This document shows, piece by piece, positions 16,902 through 60,341 of a DNA stretch of 60,341 nucleotides; the first letter of the stretch is position 1; the number at the start of each line of letters is the position of its first letter. This stretch comes from Ignavibacteriales bacterium (GTDB lineage: Bacteria > Bacteroidota > Ignavibacteria > Ignavibacteriales > Melioribacteraceae). The position numbers were made by a program, and so were the translations under genes. The notes beneath the pieces were generated by a model. That model was not told where the DNA came from. It did no database searches and saw only the letters and a list, made by a program, of their open reading frames with translations. The stretch spans positions 1-60,341 of the forward strand of contig JAIOYW010000022.1 in assembly GCA_021740915.1 (NCBI GenBank). Direction: 5' to 3'.

Positions 16902-19364
16902 TCAGTTAACCTCAGAGGAAAGTTCTTTAAAAACCTGATCTGAAAGCAAGTCATAGGTTTTATCTTCCGGATAGACAGGTTTATGAAATTTCACCTGGAT
17001 CTTTTTCCATGGTCTTGGAAAAAGACTTCCCTTGGGCAATGCGTCAATCGCTCCTTTTATTGAAACTGGTACGATCGGAACATTTAATTCTTTGCTGAGT
17101 ATTGCGAAAAATTTCTTAAACTCACCAACAGCACCAGTCGTGGACCGTGTACCCTCAGGGAAAATAATAATATTTTTGCCTTTTTTGAGTACTTCCGCCA
17201 ATTTCTGAAGTGAAAGTTTAAGATCTTTATTCAAATCCATAACTATCACATTGTTCCTGTTCGCAAATGCCCTTACAATAGGATTCCTTACGTGTTTTTC
17301 CTTCGCATAAAAATAGGTGTTCTTGAATATTTTATCCTTCAGAAATACGGACACGAATAATCCGTCAAAAAAACTCTGATGGTTCGGAGTAAGTATAAAT
17401 GGAGATTTTGGAATATTTTCTGTACCCTCTCCTTTAAGCCGGAAATACATTTTAAAAGCAATTCTTGAGGAATTCTTAAAAAGATTTTGGGTAAACCAAC
17501 TTTTGGGAAGGCGCAAATCGGTCTTTTCTTTTAATATTTCACTCCAGCGAACAGCTTCAACTGTGAATTTATTTTTCTTTTCTTTCATATAAGCCGAAAG
17601 TTTTTCAACGGTCGGGTTATGAATGAAAACTTCTTCTTTTAAATTTAGTCCAAATGTCGATTCAAGAAAAACTAACAGGTTTACCTTATCGAGCGAATCC
17701 AGACCAAGATCGATCTCAAGATGGGAATCAGGCAGGATATCGCCTTTTTTCTGATCTTTAAGGAAGTCCCTGATTACTGTATATTCCTCATATTCAGGTT
17801 CCTTTTGATTCTTTCTTGTACTGATTTTTCCTGAAACCATATCCTGCAGCTTAAACCGCTGAATCTTTCCAAGTCTTGTTTTTGGCAATTCTTCCTTGCT
17901 CAGATAAAATTTCGTTATCTTTTTATAGGGCGAAGTTTCCTTATTGTATTTATCAATAACATCCCACCGGAATATCTCCTCATAATTTCCAATTCCTTTT
18001 TCATGCAGCACTTTGAAATCGGGACAGATCACAGCATTTAGCATATCTTCATTGGCGAATACAGCCACCTCCGAAATGATGTCACTTGTATTTTTTAATT
18101 TAATTTCAATTTCTTCGGGATTAATATTCTTTCCGTTAGAAAGAACAATAATTTCCTTTGAGCGTCCCGTAATATGAATAAAACCCTGTTTATCAAAATA
18201 TCCGAGATCCCCTGTATGCAGCCAGCCATCCTTAATCACTTTTGCAGTATCTTCTGGTTTATTGTAATAACCCTGCATAATATTTCTTCCGCGGGCAATT
18301 ATTTCACCATCTCTGGAAGTGACTTCGAGCGTATGCATTTTCTCTCCCGCCGATCCTATTTTCCACCTTCCGGGACGTGTAAAAGTGATCATCGGTGCGG
18401 CTTCTGTCATTCCAAAGCCTTCCAGCATTTCGAATCCGAGAGTTTTATAATCTTTGGCAACAGCTTCATTTAATTTTGCGCCGCCGCAAACCATATACTG
18501 AACATTACCACCAAAACCTGCATGAACCTTCCCGAATATCTTCTTCGAAAAAGATCTTGAATTAACAAGCTTTGCCACTTTGAAAAGAGCCTTTGCAACA
18601 CTGTTTTTGTTTATTTTGTCCATCACCCCTTTTCGGATAGCTTCATACAACCTGGGAACCCCGATAATAATAGCAACCTTATTATTCTGAAGAGTACTTA
18701 TAATGTCCTGCGACACCATCGAAGGAGAAAAAGCCAGCAAAGCCCCTACGGATAGTGGAGCAATAAGAGTACCGAGCAGCGGGAAAATATGATGCAGCGG
18801 GAGTAGAACCAATACATTTCGCTCCGCTGTGAATATCGGGATAACATCTGCAACCGCTTCGATATTTGCAAGAAGGTTGTCAAATGAAAGCATCACACCT
18901 TTCGGCGAACCTGTGGTTCCGGAAGTATAAATGATGACAGCAGTTTTTTCCGGATCAGGAACATCAATTTCACGTATCTCATTAGAAGTTTCGGGAACCA
19001 GTTCCGGTGAAATTTTAATTGACTTTATTTTGTGCTCAGTTTTTTCAAGCGCCTTTTGCAGCGTTGATTCGGTTTCATCAGAATAAAAAATGACTCCCGG
19101 TTTGCAATCATTCAAAATATAAGCCACTTCATCAGAAGTCGCCATAAAATCGATAGGAACCGATATAGCTTCATGTTTCCAGGCACTAAAAAAAGCATAT
19201 ACCCATCCGGGTGAATTGGCTGCAAAAACTGCCACTTTATCTTGTTTTTCATACAATGAGGAATAGAAAGATATTCTTTCGAGTAATTCATTGTAGGATA
19301 TTCTTTCATCTTTATAAACAATCGCGGTATTTCCGCTGCCTTTTATGATCGTTTTATTCTGCAT
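16902..19364 (-). CDS. Acyl-activating enzyme, acyl carrier and 1-acylglycerol-phosphate acyltransferase fusion
   Basis: 820 aa with three parts. An AMP-binding ligase (about 1-515) has ATP loop YTSGTTGSPKGV (146-157), GFGMTE, HTGDLG and a candidate catalytic Lys500 in TRLGKIQR. An acyl carrier domain (about 525-595) carries Ser557 in DLGLDSLDK, the phosphopantetheine site. A PlsC-type acyltransferase (about 615-815) has NHQSFFDG (661-668) and FPEGTR (735-740). The enzyme probably activates a fatty acid, loads it on its own carrier and transfers it to a lysophospholipid. E. coli Aas does the related job with the domains in the opposite order and without an internal carrier. No membrane helices were obvious except a short amphipathic stretch before the acyltransferase. 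Confidence 0.88.
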   Translation of the reverse strand: MQNKTIIKGSGNTAIVYKDERISYNELLERISFYSSLYEKQDKVAVFAANSPGWVYAFFSAWKHEAISVPIDFMATSDEVAYILNDCKPGVIFYSDETESTLQKALEKTEHKIKSIKISPELVPETSNEIREIDVPDPEKTAVIIYTSGTTGSPKGVMLSFDNLLANIEAVADVIPIFTAERNVLVLLPLHHIFPLLGTLIAPLSVGALLAFSPSMVSQDIISTLQNNKVAIIIGVPRLYEAIRKGVMDKINKNSVAKALFKVAKLVNSRSFSKKIFGKVHAGFGGNVQYMVCGGAKLNEAVAKDYKTLGFEMLEGFGMTEAAPMITFTRPGRWKIGSAGEKMHTLEVTSRDGEIIARGRNIMQGYYNKPEDTAKVIKDGWLHTGDLGYFDKQGFIHITGRSKEIIVLSNGKNINPEEIEIKLKNTSDIISEVAVFANEDMLNAVICPDFKVLHEKGIGNYEEIFRWDVIDKYNKETSPYKKITKFYLSKEELPKTRLGKIQRFKLQDMVSGKISTRKNQKEPEYEEYTVIRDFLKDQKKGDILPDSHLEIDLGLDSLDKVNLLVFLESTFGLNLKEEVFIHNPTVEKLSAYMKEKKNKFTVEAVRWSEILKEKTDLRLPKSWFTQNLFKNSSRIAFKMYFRLKGEGTENIPKSPFILTPNHQSFFDGLFVSVFLKDKIFKNTYFYAKEKHVRNPIVRAFANRNNVIVMDLNKDLKLSLQKLAEVLKKGKNIIIFPEGTRSTTGAVGEFKKFFAILSKELNVPIVPVSIKGAIDALPKGSLFPRPWKKIQVKFHKPVYPEDKTYDLLSDQVFKELSSEVN

Positions 19365-53266: not shown

Positions 53267-55862
<2,596 letters not shown>

Positions 55863-56885
55863 TTAAAGTAACTGATACGTCCGATATAGCTTCTCAAGAA
55901 ATACTCTACTGTGAATGAAAAAGGAATGATAAACATATTTTCTGAAATCTTCGATATTCCGCAAATTATCAAGATTTTGCTTCGTAGCTCTGTTCTGATA
56001 ATCAAGAATTTTATCAATTGCTTCAGGAAAAACATATCTTCGTGCAATCAGCATATGAAGAAAGAGATCCCGCATTTCTGTGAGATGATCCGGATCCGTT
56101 CTCAGGTTATCTTCGTTAAGTGCATCGCGCTGGGAAAGTATAAACTCAACGTTTAATTCGTTAAATGTCCCCAGTTTAATTGTTTTTCCGCCTATTTCAC
56201 CGACGGGATAAACTATTCCTCTCGGCACAATTTCAGTAACCGTAACACATTGAAAACCGTGCGTTGACAATTCGGGCATATAATTCCTGATCTTCTCAAA
56301 CCATTCCCGATTATGATTTATCTGCCAGTCAACAACTCCTTCCAGTTTATCCTCGATAGTTGTTTTTTCCCTGATATGATAATTGATGGCATCGGAACGG
56401 TATTTGCGTTCGATTGCCGCCATAAGAACAATCGTAAGCTCTTTGACTGTTGTTTCGAAATCGAAATAGGAAAAAAGGCGGGGATATTTGCTCCGTAGAA
56501 TTTCAAAAAAGGAATCGTTAATTGAGCTGTTTCTTATCCAAGGTATAAGGTTATCGTATCCTGCAAGCTGCTTCAGTTCTTCCAGCACAGGAATTCCTGT
56601 TAACTCCCTGAGGAATGAAATTGTTTTTTCATAGTTCATCCTTGCACCATTAAGGTAATGCATTGTACCCTGCGCGCTTGGAGTATCAAGTCCGAATCCT
56701 TCAAAAACAAAACCTTCTCCGCTATATTTAAGCATTTCAGCTAGTTGTGTTTTACGCATCCGGATATGTATAGCAGGAGCAAAATCCCGGACAATCAGAT
56801 CAAATTCTTTTCCCGGAAATTTTTTTCTTAATTCAGCAAGTGCATATTTTGTAACAGTCTCTATCTGGATGTTTATATCATTCAT
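55863..56885 (-). CDS. Hypothetical protein, 340 aa
   Basis: No family recognised. The protein is soluble, mixed alpha/beta and charged, with no signal peptide or membrane segment. Conspicuous pieces are RKTQLAEMLKYSGEGFVFEG near the N-terminus, WQINHNREWFEKIRNYMP mid-way and a helical C-terminus rich in Arg, Tyr and Leu. The clean codon structure and length argue that it is real. No strong ribosome site precedes ATG 56885. It is the last chromosomal-looking gene before the mobile element. Confidence 0.65.
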   Translation of the reverse strand: MNDINIQIETVTKYALAELRKKFPGKEFDLIVRDFAPAIHIRMRKTQLAEMLKYSGEGFVFEGFGLDTPSAQGTMHYLNGARMNYEKTISFLRELTGIPVLEELKQLAGYDNLIPWIRNSSINDSFFEILRSKYPRLFSYFDFETTVKELTIVLMAAIERKYRSDAINYHIREKTTIEDKLEGVVDWQINHNREWFEKIRNYMPELSTHGFQCVTVTEIVPRGIVYPVGEIGGKTIKLGTFNELNVEFILSQRDALNEDNLRTDPDHLTEMRDLFLHMLIARRYVFPEAIDKILDYQNRATKQNLDNLRNIEDFRKYVYHSFFIHSRVFLEKLYRTYQLL

Positions 56886-57491
56886 AGCGTAAAGAAATTT
56901 TTTTGAGTAAGTAAAATTACAATTTGGAGAATAAATAAAACGTGAGCTGAACTTGTTCTATATCACGATCCCGAACAAAACTGCGGAATTGTGGCCAAAA
57001 ACATTTTTGTGCGTCCTATAATATTTGAAATCGGGACTCATGAAGTGATCATTTTAACGATTGTCTTCTGCCTGCTTAAATGCCGAAATAAAAGGCCTGC
57101 AGCTGAAGCAGATTAGAATCCCATAACCCGCCCTGAACATCGGAACAGTATCTCGAAGCACTTTGGGTGTGATTTCAAAAAACGAATCAAATCATCGGTA
57201 TCCGCACCGATATAATTGAGCAAAGATATTAACTCCAGAAATATATCGGCATTTTAGCGGGATTTATCACTTGTTCTTTTATCGTTACTTATTACACCAA
57301 TAAAAACCGCTTACACCCTTGATAATATTGATTAAACAGTCAACTCAGATAGCCCAGCATAATACTTGAAATGTTACTCAGTCGTTACCGGAACAAAGAA
57401 AAAATTTTGTTACTCGTTCATTTTTTGTTACTTGTTTTGTTACTTTTTTAGTATCTTTAAGTAAGATATTTTACATTTTAGGACGGGAAAA
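56886..57491. other. 606-base intergenic region at the left edge of the mobile element
   Basis: No intact gene. On the minus strand two overlapping short frames (about 57113-57230 and 57054-57197) look protein-like but have no ribosome site and stop in different frames. They may be a decayed gene. The right part holds the GTTAC repeats (57284-57443). No tRNA gene was found that would mark the insertion site. Confidence 0.45.
57373..57444. repeat. GTTAC direct repeats upstream of the integrase
   Basis: GTTAC occurs at 57373, 57384, 57409, 57427 and 57439 (another at 57284). The last three share TTTTGTTACT. All lie in the 120 bases before the integrase start. They are candidates for arm-type integrase sites or autoregulation sites. 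Confidence 0.45.
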
Positions 57492-58607
57492 ATGATCGGG
57501 ACTGTAACACTTCGAGATAAGCAAACCAAAAAAGGCACTTCACTTTATCTTGATATTTATCTTAATGGAAAACGTAAGTATGAATTCTTGGGGCTATATC
57601 TTACCGGGAACGAAGCGCAAGACAAAGCCACCGAGTTAACAGCCGAACAAATAAGGATTGAAAGACTTGTTGAAGTGCAAAGACTAACAAACGGACTTGA
57701 AGTCTTATCAAAGATCACCATTGAGAAAGTTATCAGCGAGCTTGCAAAAAATAAAACCAAGCGAAAAACAAAAGACAATTACCAGACACTAACAGCACAC
57801 CTTAACAACTTCGACCAGAATTTTACAGTTAAACAAATAGCGAAAACCGGACTGGATTATTTAGAACGATTCAGGGAATATTTATTAAATGCACCAAAAT
57901 TAACCGGGACGGGAAATATCAGCCGGAACACAGCAAATAACTACATAACCACTTTCAAAGCCGTCTTTAACTATGCAATACGGAAAGGATATATCCGGGA
58001 AAATCCTATGATGAGAATTGAGCCGATTAAAAAAGTTGATACTGAAAGGGGTTATCTTACGATTGATGAGTTTCAGAGACTTCAAAAATGCGATTTTATC
58101 AGCGATATTACGAACAGCCCAAACCTTAACCAGATTCACAAGGCTTTCCTATTTGGCTGTTTAACCGGCATAAGATTCTCAGATATTCGGAAATTAACGC
58201 TCCAGGACATCACAGACGGAAAGATCAAAGTTAAGATGACCAAGACAGACAGATTTATTTATGTTCCATTGAACGAAGAGGCAAGGCAAATTATCAGCGA
58301 ACTATCAGCCGGAAAAGTTAAGAATATTGACGGGAGGATTTTCAACTTGCCTAATAATAGCAACGTGAATAAAGCATTAAAAAGAATTTTAGACGCTATC
58401 GGCATTGAAAAGGAAAAAGTATCTTTCCACCTTTCCCGGCATACCTTCGCCACAGTCGCTTTAACTTTAGGGGTTGACCTGATGATAGTATCAAAGATTT
58501 TAGGACACCGGAATTTATCCACCACGCAAATTTATGCAAAGATCATTGATAAAAAGATGACCGAAGGAATGAACAAATTTAACGGAATTTTTAAGAGTAC
58601 CATATAA
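57492..58607 (+). CDS. Tyrosine site-specific recombinase (integrase)
   Basis: 371 aa. N-terminal arm-binding domain (about 1-60; TVTLRDKQTKKGTSLYLDIYLNGKRKYEFLG), SAM-like core-binding domain (about 80-190; YRLNFDQN-like helices ending FNYAIRKGYIRENPM) and catalytic domain. Catalytic residues: Arg228 in LTGIRFSDIRKL, the HLSRH set His313/Arg316, His in LGHRNLS, and nucleophile Tyr348 in TTQIYAKI. This is the type found in Bacteroidetes integrative elements and phages. It probably mediates integration and excision of this element with the HTH protein downstream. Confidence 0.94.
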   Translation: MIGTVTLRDKQTKKGTSLYLDIYLNGKRKYEFLGLYLTGNEAQDKATELTAEQIRIERLVEVQRLTNGLEVLSKITIEKVISELAKNKTKRKTKDNYQTLTAHLNNFDQNFTVKQIAKTGLDYLERFREYLLNAPKLTGTGNISRNTANNYITTFKAVFNYAIRKGYIRENPMMRIEPIKKVDTERGYLTIDEFQRLQKCDFISDITNSPNLNQIHKAFLFGCLTGIRFSDIRKLTLQDITDGKIKVKMTKTDRFIYVPLNEEARQIISELSAGKVKNIDGRIFNLPNNSNVNKALKRILDAIGIEKEKVSFHLSRHTFATVALTLGVDLMIVSKILGHRNLSTTQIYAKIIDKKMTEGMNKFNGIFKSTI

Positions 58608-58892
58608 TAATGAATATAACCAAATATAAAATAATCACTTATAAGATAATTACAAATATTTTTGCAAATAATATAAAATATCGGGGTAAATCCTAACTAT
58701 ATAATAATATACAGACTTAAGCAAAAATATTCTTTGATGATTAATGAAAATTCAAGTATATTGGACTTAATTAATTTTTAATAGTTCTGACGGGGTAAAG
58801 TTTAGCCTTGATGAAAACCTTTAGTTCACCCCGTCCGAACGATAGGCAAGTAGTCAAGGCTATTTTTTTTTAATAATCTTAAGGAATACAAA
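58608..58892. other. Spacer between integrase and HTH gene with a structured leader
   Basis: 285 bases. It contains a direct copy of CGGGGTAAA (58682-58690 and 58791-58799) and the interleaved stems described separately. The first 130 bases are very AT-rich and could hold the promoter. Confidence 0.6.
58784..58871 (+). ncRNA. Candidate pseudoknot or attenuator RNA in the HTH gene leader
   Basis: Two stems interleave. Stem 1 pairs 58784-58799 with 58825-58840 (14 of 16 positions, core GACGGGGT/ACCCCGTC). Stem 2 pairs 58803-58811 (TAGCCTTGA) with 58854-58862 (TCAAGGCTA), nine of nine, and is followed at once by nine Ts. The left arm of stem 2 lies in the loop of stem 1, so the two form either an H-type pseudoknot or a switch between an open and a terminated state. 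The HTH gene's AAGGA site and start (58893) follow 22 bases after the T-run. A 20-codon frame (58811-58873, MKTFSSPRPNDRQVV...) also spans the region but has no ribosome site. Function is inference. Confidence 0.5.
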
Positions 58893-59144
58893 ATGAAAGC
58901 CCAAGAGCTTAACACCACCGAGAAAAACCAGAATAAACCTTTGCCGGAACTTCTAACAGTCGCCGAAGTCGCCAAAGTTTTGAATGTTGCAAGACAAACG
59001 ATTTACAATAAGGTTTTTAATAAAGAGATTGAATATTACAAAGTTTTCGATACAGTTAAATTTGACCGGGAATATATTCAAGGACTGATTCAGCAAAGTA
59101 AGGTTAAAAGCAAAGATCAGATCAAACAGCAAGCCGGATATTGA
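58893..59144 (+). CDS. HTH (excisionase/MerR-type) DNA-binding protein
   Basis: 83 aa. After a polar 17-residue lead, a helix-turn-helix of the excisionase-family type covers about 20-70: LLTVAEVAKVLNVARQTIYN, then VFDTVKFDREYIQGLIQQSK. Such small proteins act as recombination directionality factors with tyrosine integrases or as replication regulators. AAGGA seven bases upstream supports ATG 58893. It follows the candidate attenuator and precedes the replication gene by 22 bases, so both genes share the leader. Confidence 0.85.
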   Translation: MKAQELNTTEKNQNKPLPELLTVAEVAKVLNVARQTIYNKVFNKEIEYYKVFDTVKFDREYIQGLIQQSKVKSKDQIKQQAGY

Positions 59145-59166
59145 AAATGATTACCAAAGGACGGAC

Positions 59167-60189
59167 ATGAACAAGGGCTTCGTAAAATTTTACAGATCGA
59201 TTTTCGATGATCCAATGATTGGCAGAGACCCCCGTTATCTTGCCGTATATGCGTACTTATTATCAAACGCAAACTATGACACAAAATCTATTGTATTGGA
59301 CGGAACGAAAATCGATATACCAAGAGGTTATTTTATCGGATCAGAAATGAAAATTGTAGAACAATTTCAGGGCAAGATACCACGCTCAACACTTAAAAGA
59401 ATTTTGAAAAATCTTAGATTGGCAGGTAAAATAACCTTATCGCCGTCAAATAAAAACACCATGTTCAAAGTTGTTGATTATGATAAATATCAAAATGATC
59501 GGACATCAAAAAACACACCGGATACCCCTGATACTATTAGCGGAAATAGGGTAATAGCTGATAAAACGGACATCAAACGGACATCAGACAGCGAAAAAAC
59601 GGACATCAAACGGACATCAAAAAACACACCGGATACCCCTGATACTATTGAGACAGATCGTTTAATTAGAAATTTCTTTAACGAGGATGGAACATCTAAA
59701 GGCGCAAAAACGGACACAACTAATAATCTTTTAAAAGAAAAAAAGAAAAAAGATTTTTTTACAAAGCAGGCTGATGAAAAGAATATCAGCCTGCACGGTG
59801 AAAAATATTTGGAACAGGAAAAAGACGCTAAGAAGCCAAAGGATCATCAGCAGCTTACAGCTTCGCTTGTTCAATATTTTGCAGATGAGTATTATAAAAC
59901 AAGGGCAATGCAATTCCCAATTAATCATGAGAGAAATAATAAAGCCGTTAATATAATCATTGAATATGTGATTCAACATTTTCAGGACAATAATGACCCT
60001 ATACAGAATAACGATGAACTTTTCACAGCTATTAGAAGATTTTTTGATGATGCGCTTGCACTTGAAGACCCTTATTATTGGTGGAAAATTAACTTAGTTT
60101 ACATATCCGACAATATACCAAAATTGCTTTTAGCTATTCACAAAATGAAAAAATCAAAACCGCAAACCTTAGTCAGTGATGCAATATGA
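59167..60189 (+). CDS. Phage-type replication initiator/replisome organiser with internal repeats
   Basis: 340 aa. The N-terminal winged-helix domain (about 1-105; GFVKFYRSIFDDPMIGRDPRYLAVYAYLLSNAN-type start) is like the phage replisome organiser N-terminal family. A low-complexity linker (about 110-190) repeats TDIKRTSDSEKTDIKRTSKN and NTPDTPDTI. An Asn/Asp-rich C-terminal domain (about 215-335) ends YWWKINLVYISDNIPKLL. It should open the element's origin and load the host helicase. DNA in the linker holds phased CGGACATCA repeats and an A-rich tract (see repeat). AAAGGA before ATG 59167 supports the start. Confidence 0.75.
   Translation: MNKGFVKFYRSIFDDPMIGRDPRYLAVYAYLLSNANYDTKSIVLDGTKIDIPRGYFIGSEMKIVEQFQGKIPRSTLKRILKNLRLAGKITLSPSNKNTMFKVVDYDKYQNDRTSKNTPDTPDTISGNRVIADKTDIKRTSDSEKTDIKRTSKNTPDTPDTIETDRLIRNFFNEDGTSKGAKTDTTNNLLKEKKKKDFFTKQADEKNISLHGEKYLEQEKDAKKPKDHQQLTASLVQYFADEYYKTRAMQFPINHERNNKAVNIIIEYVIQHFQDNNDPIQNNDELFTAIRRFFDDALALEDPYYWWKINLVYISDNIPKLLLAIHKMKKSKPQTLVSDAI
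59500..59649 (+). repeat. Iteron-like repeats inside the replication gene, candidate origin
   Basis: CGGACATCA occurs at 59500, 59567, 59578, 59600 and 59611; the last four are spaced by 11, 22 and 11 bases, i.e. by whole helical turns. A 24-bp unit (59563-59586) repeats exactly at 59596-59619, and a 39-bp unit (59500-59538) repeats exactly at 59611-59649. An A-rich tract (59727-59766) follows. The layout matches the lambda O gene, which carries its origin inside the initiator gene. Origin function is inference. Confidence 0.55.
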
Positions 60190-60341
60190 AAGAGTTCCAG
60201 GAATAAAGAAGTTTTATTATTAAGTAAATGTGTATTCTGATATACTAACTAAGTAGTATAATGTATATTATATATTAGAATAAGATTAGTACCTAAAAGA
60301 GCCGTACCCGCAAAAGATAAACCGACCTGATTTAATAGAAT
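60190..60341. other. Sequence after the replication gene, cut by the right edge
   Basis: 152 very AT-rich bases with no gene. The element continues beyond the window. Confidence 0.6.

Follow-up and report, generated by a model that had tools for sequence, protein, structure and literature searches.

The window analysed here is a stretch of 60,341 nucleotides from an Ignavibacteriales bacterium (assembly GCA_021740915.1, contig JAIOYW010000022.1) and forms the entire contig C4 of its genome. It carries a mobile element with a tyrosine integrase gene (int), a gene for an excisionase- or regulator-like HTH protein and a gene for a DnaD-like helicase loader (rep). The gap of 285 nt between int and the HTH gene contains a leader with two stems, S1 and S2, followed by a run of nine Ts (Table 1). 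S1 pairs at 14 of 16 positions (hand count) and S2 at all nine. The arms of the two stems interleave, that is, the stems cross. The original prediction had placed both stems, the T-run and their crossing at exactly these positions, which can be read directly from the letters, and its description of a T-run that resembles a terminator, placed shortly ahead of the HTH gene in a mobile element with a replication gene, is likewise borne out, with 21 nt between the T-run and the start at 58893.

Table 1. Genes and leader features of the window element (positions in the window).
Feature	Position	Strand	Match or basis
GGACGGG, directly 5' of the int start, able to pair with the apical loop over 7 bp	57481..57487	+	
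Tyrosine integrase (int)	57492..58607	+	Pfam PF00589
Promoter-like -7 box TATATTGG, 1 mismatch to TAnnTTTG, 19 nt before S1	58757..58764	+	sequence
S1 5' arm, target-like (cf. seqA of P4), GTTCTGACGGGGTAAA	58784..58799	+	
Stretch common to the C18 element (C18:182738-182827, 96%)	58793..58884	+	
S2 (terminator) 5' arm, TAGCCTTGA, then TGAA	58803..58811	+	
Inner 3-bp helix, 5' side, CCT, pairs with AGG 58844-58846	58818..58820	+	S2-state fold
S3 5' side, GTTC	58824..58827	+	S2-state fold
S1 3' arm, TTCACCCCGTCCGAAC	58825..58840	+	
Apical loop ACCCCGTCC, exposing the S1 3' arm	58828..58836	+	S2-state fold
S3 3' side, GAAC, doubling as outer end of S1	58837..58840	+	S2-state fold
Inner 3-bp helix, 3' side, AGG	58844..58846	+	S2-state fold
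S2 3' arm, TCAAGGCTA	58854..58862	+	
Nine-T run	58863..58871	+	sequence
HTH_17 protein, excisionase/regulator-like	58893..59144	+	Pfam PF12728; phrog_66
DnaD-like helicase loader (rep)	59167..60189	+	phrog_2514; Pfam match none
CGGACATCA x5 inside the replication gene, candidate origin iterons	59500..59619	+	repeat count

The fold of the S2 state contains a further inner hairpin, S3, that the original prediction did not have. Its GTTC/GAAC stem puts the 3' strand of S1 into the apical loop. Because the GAAC belongs to both helices, S3 and the full S1 are mutually exclusive in the window. S1 and S2 share no bases and could form together, so that S1 need not block termination. The nested states have energies near each other, with -24.7 kcal/mol for the S1 state and -21.6 kcal/mol for the forced S2 state.

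For the evaluation of this arrangement we used a score for two crossing helices of which the second abuts a T-run, and the window site reached 53.5. When the int-HTH gap was shuffled 1000 times with its dinucleotides preserved, this value was never attained (best 42); only 29 of the shuffles gave any candidate at all, so the T-run itself is part of the test. Six shuffles of the whole window resulted in a best score of 46. In conditional shuffles, which keep S2 and shuffle the flank and loop, the S1 score of the window was reached 3 times in 300. The plain nested fold of the leader is only mildly unusual (z -1.93; 9 of 200 shuffles were as stable) and, because nested stability lies only mildly above the shuffles, the signal is the arrangement and not a single hairpin. 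The observation of crossing stems is right and goes beyond chance.

The genome holds one further copy of the leader, at C18:182738-182827, which is 96% identical over the common stretch. S2, S3, the apical loop and the 3' arm of S1 are letter-identical to the window, and the 5' arm of S1 is altered from GTTCTGACGGGG to GTTCAGGCGGG with 10 pairs retained (alignment and hand count). The lowest nested fold of this copy is the S2/S3 terminator state (-25.6 kcal/mol), and the real score of its gap was reached in 1 of 1000 shuffles. A -7-like box, TATATTTG, lies 26 nt before its S1. The copy precedes a different HTH protein, 45% identical to that of the window, and a DnaD-like replication protein with phrog_186 as best match, compared with phrog_2514 for the window. 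The recurrence of the S1 5' sequence at 58682, noted in the original prediction, is real (CGGGGTAAA again at 58682-58690). The idea that this second copy competes for the pairing partner is weak, as the C18 leader lacks a counterpart (element searched with up to 3 mismatches).

A search of 164 genomes of the order with a model of the leader (R1) returned the C18 copy as the only relative of the window RNA by sequence. The model also matched the window site on the reverse strand, in an overlapping position (E 2.6e-5), and the remaining matches with E values of 0.02-1 were taken as noise without individual inspection. Leader patterns gave no match in the viral contigs or the genome contigs, the window leader gave none in 50,697 phage records, and searches with the HTH protein and the window DnaD-like protein gave none in the viral contigs. 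Since the genus is represented by one genome, the covariation analysis of the window's own RNA was limited to the two copies.

The elements of C4 and C18 show three short near-identical stretches between genes that are unrelated or far diverged. They comprise the leader RNA (58793-58884), a stretch around the end of the HTH gene (about 59108-59166, alignment reading) and 147 nt at and beyond the end of the replication gene (60195-60341). The pattern looks as if genes had been exchanged between fixed linkers. A tiny ORF, MITKGRT, at 59147-59170 (MNTKGRT in C18) lies inside the shared linker and overlaps the start of the window replication gene. The C18 element is situated at the 3' end of a gene read by eye as rimO, and a 48-bp direct repeat (98%) of the end of this rimO-like gene was found at C18:180615-180662 and C13:203236-203283 (L006, L007). 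The contigs C18 and C13 have 61 bp in common, and the same 61 bp also end contig C4. If C18 runs on into C13, the C18 element would measure about 4 kb, and we infer that both elements are small, satellite-like integrated elements. No tRNA or tmRNA was found in the window and in two loci.

Both replication genes hold internal repeats. The window gene contains five copies of CGGACATCA against 0.38 expected, a number reached in none of 100 shuffles, and the five repeats have the usual look of origin iterons, which makes them candidates for this role. In the C18 gene the repeats are weaker, with one 31-nt pair of 84% identity (L002 2129-2267). Between int and the leader, a perfect 11-bp inverted repeat, AATATTTTTGC/GCAAAAATATT, is present at 58655-58665 and 58721-58731 and is perhaps an integrase or excisionase site.

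The surroundings of related int, HTH and DnaD-like genes, 0.93 Mb read on both strands with many of the loci overlapping, were scanned for the same crossing layout. Scores of at least 50 were found for the window, a prophage (G043), a phage with two sites (G039) and a further phage (G149), and two such scores came up in the host control of 40 x 20 kb (1.6 Mb, both strands), each inside an ORF of at least 100 aa. Conditional shuffles reached the S1 score of the respective site in 7 of 300 cases for C18, 4 for G149, 3 each for L174 and G018, 2 each for G039 and L173 and 1 for G043; most of the sites tested in this way had been chosen by score, and the host control is the fairer test. The second G039 site (L131:11404) was dropped because 178 of 300 conditional shuffles reached its S1 score. 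We also discarded an energy-based scan for long duplexes, which was too permissive and separated host and mobile DNA poorly (strict hits per Mb: host 10.0, mobile loci 22.3 with the same place repeated, viral loci 10.3).

The crossing layout precedes the DnaD-like genes of phages in a Melioribacter roseus MAG (G039, L275) and an Ignavibacteriales MAG (G149, L307) and, among others, that of the IMG/VR locus L174. An alignment of five DnaD-like N-termini led to 80 viral loci (best 80 of 411) and 63 genomic loci. Within 400 nt upstream of the DnaD-like genes, 30 of 142 loci (one was too short) scored at least 34 in comparison to 1 hit in 143 in-gene controls, which are coding sequence with fewer terminators than leaders; three of the 30 (L215, L275, L307) are the phages that prompted the idea, some others are near-duplicates and two (L237, L269) lie inside ORFs of at least 100 aa. 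A narrower alignment added 80 loci (best 80 of 237), and 59 of the 76 with enough upstream sequence scored at least 30. In one IMG/VR phage, strong crossing stems (L173 1526-1640, score 62) are located 5' of a small gene, GIY-YIG-like by eye, that precedes the DnaD-like gene. Another HTH-like gene, with a related integrase upstream (by eye), is preceded by a hairpin and a nine-T run (L066 3580-3660, G029), perhaps a similar control. The leaders of two Vibrio phages (L419, L420) had no convincing structure.

A structural pattern search of 223 loci matched 74, which represent 42 distinct sequences and, as ten contigs had been fetched twice, 64 contigs by name. These matches are distributed over the viral (15 of 80), the genomic (1 of 63) and the narrower-alignment set (58 of 80). 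The sub-family has the order S1 5' arm (8 nt), about 24 nt, S2 5' arm, TGAA, S3 5' side (4 nt), two nt, S1 3' arm (8 nt), S3 3' side (4 nt), GGAT, S2 3' arm and T-run, with the 8-nt S1 3' arm inside the S3 loop. Our search required 8/8 pairs in S1, 4/4 in S3, at least five in S2 and the S1 3' arm in the S3 loop. Full S1 and S3 pairing is therefore given by construction, but the variety of pair types is not, and it amounts to 20 S1 codes and 18 S3 pairs. Without the pairing requirement, 25 distinct anchored sites showed S1 8/8 in 20 and S3 4/4 in 23 cases, and two of the five S1 misses (L239, L254) are 8/8 one register over. An additional stem directly 5' of S1, termed S0, closes a hairpin with the S1 5' arm in its loop. 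At least five contiguous S0 pairs were present in 41 of 42 members in contrast to 32% with the loop shuffled, the best stretch lying elsewhere in three members (L264, L274, L407).

For the alignment of the sub-family we used 41 members, excluding L336, which aligned badly. The cells of the helices were paired in 96.0% of cases compared with 68.4% in shuffles and at most 49.3% when the arms were slid. Both sides were changed in 310 cells (90.3 in shuffles), and covariation was 0.792 against 0.245 shuffled and at most 0.157 slid. A weak measure, the number of pairs that change on both sides, gave 24 of 28 with a shuffle mean of 20.8, and 9 of 500 shuffles reached 24. S0 is the weakest helix with 85.4% pairing. 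S2 and S3 were part of the lowest fold of hairpin B in all 42 members, and the S1 duplex had a median of -12.3 kcal/mol. Two loci missed by the pattern, L393 and L409, matched the sub-family model with 63 and 68 bits. As the four helices covary, the sub-family RNA can be described as two hairpins with complementary loops, the second of which is a terminator. This points to a kissing-loop or pseudoknot terminator, a structural claim that stands whatever the mechanism. Compensatory changes, which the original prediction had named as the check, are hence strong in phage leaders of the same layout, in an alignment that excludes the window.

The sub-family model (R2) gave no match with E<=0.01 in 395 genomes of the phylum, in a search without positive control. 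It also left all eleven leaders that share only the layout unmatched at E<=1 (L195, L215, L217, L221, L237, L272, L275, L278, L307, L320, L336), so that a common descent of all such leaders is unsupported by the model.

TAnnTTTG is a promoter motif of Bacteroides, which we take to act as the -7 box. It ends 8-11 nt before S1 in 40 of 42 sub-family members in comparison to 144 of 4000 random 40-nt stretches, and the RNA therefore probably starts a few nt 5' of S1. The DnaD-like gene lies downstream of the leader, after one small ORF in 11 of 14 loci inspected. Outside the model, we identified a member in the cultured Cellulophaga phage phi18:3 (47 bits, E 1.3e-7). It occupies approximately positions 3163-3078 of the record, in a gap without annotated features that separates gp008 from gp007 and precedes the DnaD-like gp006, and carries the box TACATTTG and the S1 arms CTTCTGAC/GTCAGAAG.

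The S1 code differs in 34 of 39 locus pairs (not independent of each other) with genes at least 93% identical over 300 nt, by up to 12 of 16 nt, and these differences between close relatives often come with a wholly different leader. Such a turnover is as expected if S1 serves as the specificity code of an immunity or incompatibility determinant; exchange without selection on the code could also yield it. A second copy of the code was found neither in the 36 of 71 kb of phi18:3 examined nor in the loci of the sub-family, where chance alone would give about 1.72, so an action on other genes is unsupported in these loci and in this part of phi18:3. Conserved unpaired positions of the sub-family are located around TGAA and GGAT and in a stretch after the S1 5' arm.

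The window and the sub-family are alike in the crossing of S1 and S2, the S2 3' arm adjoining the T-run, the order S1-S2-S3-S1'-S3'-S2'-T-run, the TGAA after S2 and the S3 hairpin with a loop exposing the S1 3' arm in the S2-state fold. A phrog_2514 gene follows in both, but in the window the HTH gene intervenes before rep, and the C18 gene is phrog_186-like. In contrast to the sub-family, S1 and the loops are longer in the window, and S0 is missing, since neither the window nor the C18 copy shows three or more contiguous pairs flanking the S1 5' arm. A TAnnTTTG box 8-11 nt before S1 is likewise absent, the boxes lying at 19 and 26 nt in the two copies. The sub-family model gave 14 bits on the window (E 0.22, best in 55000-60341), and host decoys reached up to 21.3 bits. 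Owing to the low model score, the missing S0 and the promoter spacing, we liken the window to the sub-family and do not file it there. Its RNA appears to work like the sub-family, while membership by sequence fails. The attenuator idea of the original prediction thus gains support from the relatives in layout and extends to a covarying phage RNA family, to which the model does not assign the window itself.

C4 antisense RNA is a small phage RNA that pairs with its own operon, and in pT181-type plasmids alternative terminator and antiterminator stems decide on expression of the replication gene. The pT181 type, put forward in the original prediction, is not the closest analogue; the stems of the window cross without sharing bases and a DnaD-like loader lies downstream. 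Nearer is the CI RNA of P4. As described in PMC4825925, it is processed from an untranslated transcript and pairs with seqA upstream and seqC downstream, which results in premature transcription termination of the replication genes. P4 CI and the window have in common that the RNA would come from the operon's own transcript and that the loop is complementary to a site upstream in the leader, and the window, too, has int and a replication gene on a small integrated element. Unlike P4, it belongs to other hosts, and its RNA, which has no Rfam match, would end in its own T-run. No clear site like seqC was found downstream; the rep start of C4 pairs 6 nt with the loop, and the sites with at least 7 pairs besides S1 all lie upstream (int start and inside int). 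For IsrK of Gifsy-1, PMC4825925 describes a single transcript that is both small RNA and messenger, a likeness that comes with different genes and host. The c4 and STAXI motifs are catalogued in PMC2864571, and C4 antisense RNA (Rfam RF01695) is found in other host groups and was not matched here. Rfam 15 gave no match to the window at gathering score and none at E<=1 to 20 loci with such leaders. Among the papers listed by literature searches, which mostly covered work outside subscription, none described an RNA of this kind upstream of DnaD-like genes.

Based on these data, we propose a model in which the HTH and DnaD-like replication genes have 58784-58871 as their leader, and this leader can adopt two alternative folds. 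If S1 forms, the S2 5' arm would be held in the S1 loop, the terminator would be delayed or kept in a pseudoknot, and transcription would continue. If S2 and S3 form, an intrinsic terminator would stop transcription at about 58871 and release a small RNA, about 100 nt long, with the S1 3' arm (ACCCCGUCC) exposed in its apical loop. On the transcript being made next, this loop could bind GACGGGG in the S1 5' arm, prevent S1 and thereby favour termination. In this way the leader would restrain the copying of the element that carries it and of every other element sharing its code, in the manner of the P4 CI RNA. We infer promoter use, termination, the choice of state and action in trans for the window leader, and consider control in trans the most likely mechanism. 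For the reading as a whole, in which the attenuator itself gives rise to the regulatory RNA in the way known from P4 CI immunity, we see the chances as evenly balanced. More tentatively, and with doubt prevailing, the leaders may form an undescribed class of self-addressed phage RNAs at the start of replication operons, two complementary-loop hairpins with the second ending in a terminator. The loop code, exchanged or changed between near-identical phages, would then decide which co-resident elements silence each other, and in the window's element the loop would in addition block the ribosome sites of int and neighbouring genes, as general repressor of a protein-poor satellite.

Several other explanations have to be weighed against this model. 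It seems rather unlikely to us that the leader is an attenuator acting in cis only, with the balance between S1 and S2 set by a protein, a ligand or the speed of transcription. The pairing demonstrated does lie within one leader, S1 covariation would also follow from cis pairing alone, the 8-nt code is without further copies in the loci and the part of phi18:3 covered, and the conserved unpaired positions could be a binding site. However, 20 S1 codes and the differences in 34 of 39 close-relative pairs are unlike an aptamer, and the S3 loop exposes the S1 3' arm in the window as well as in the sub-family, where the search demanded it. We judge it improbable that the locus encodes a plain sRNA with its own terminator between int and HTH, the C-rich loop of which silences ribosome sites of the element, with HTH and rep otherwise promoted or read through. 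The loop pairs 7 nt within the 20 nt before int in C4 and before int and orf225 in C18; 7-pair runs thus occur at three of six element gene starts computed (C18 rep start left out) and at none of 512 host ORF starts (first ATG of the ORF). The 6 nt at the C4 rep start are matched by 6 of the 512 host starts, and in the C18 element, over 3.36 kb, no sense site other than the int and orf225 starts attains 7 pairs. On the other hand, the int match was noticed before testing, 6 of 504 loop permutations (the real one included, all with CCCGTCC) do equally well, and one of the three C4 sense sites lies inside int, the others being the int start and the S1 5' arm. G-rich ribosome sites may simply be general in element genes, and a terminator 21 nt before a start codon has the look of an attenuator. 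We regard the loop pairing at the int, orf225 and rep starts as a lead only.

GRCGGG repeats could also be DNA sites bound by the integrase or the HTH protein, with the stems as by-product of inverted sites and the T-run serving only as int terminator. In C4 the int start and the leader both contain GACGGG, and in C18 the corresponding two places contain GGCGGG. GRCGGG occurs six times in 3.4 kb of C4, the two S1 arms included (mean 0.9, maximum 4 in 60 shuffles), and three times in C18 (0.9, maximum 5 in shuffles). This explanation is nevertheless very unlikely, as S2 has no GRCGGG site and the phage leaders keep the helix order with unrelated sequences and compensatory changes. Least credible of all is that an ordinary terminator merely happens to cross a repeat. 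The nested-fold energy is not extreme and two hits occurred in the host control, both in ORFs, but the shuffles of the gap and the second copy make this reading unlikely, and 30 of 142 phage leaders against one hit in the controls argue in the same direction.

The comparison suggests that such leaders may be RNA switches that time the replication of the element. If the proposed model is true, phages and small integrated elements from the Bacteroidota/Ignavibacteria side would possess an RNA-based switch for immunity and copy control. Immunity to superinfection through an RNA code would then be open to direct testing, and a compact natural kissing-loop terminator would be added to those at hand. 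Starting from one window, such leaders were seen in the 74 loci and in the cultured phage phi18:3. Finally, a GRYGGGAAAA motif that resembles the S1 5' arm is situated before the ATG of int in each of the two elements (57481-57494; L006 15858-15871) and of orf225 in C18 (L006 ~16954-16967).
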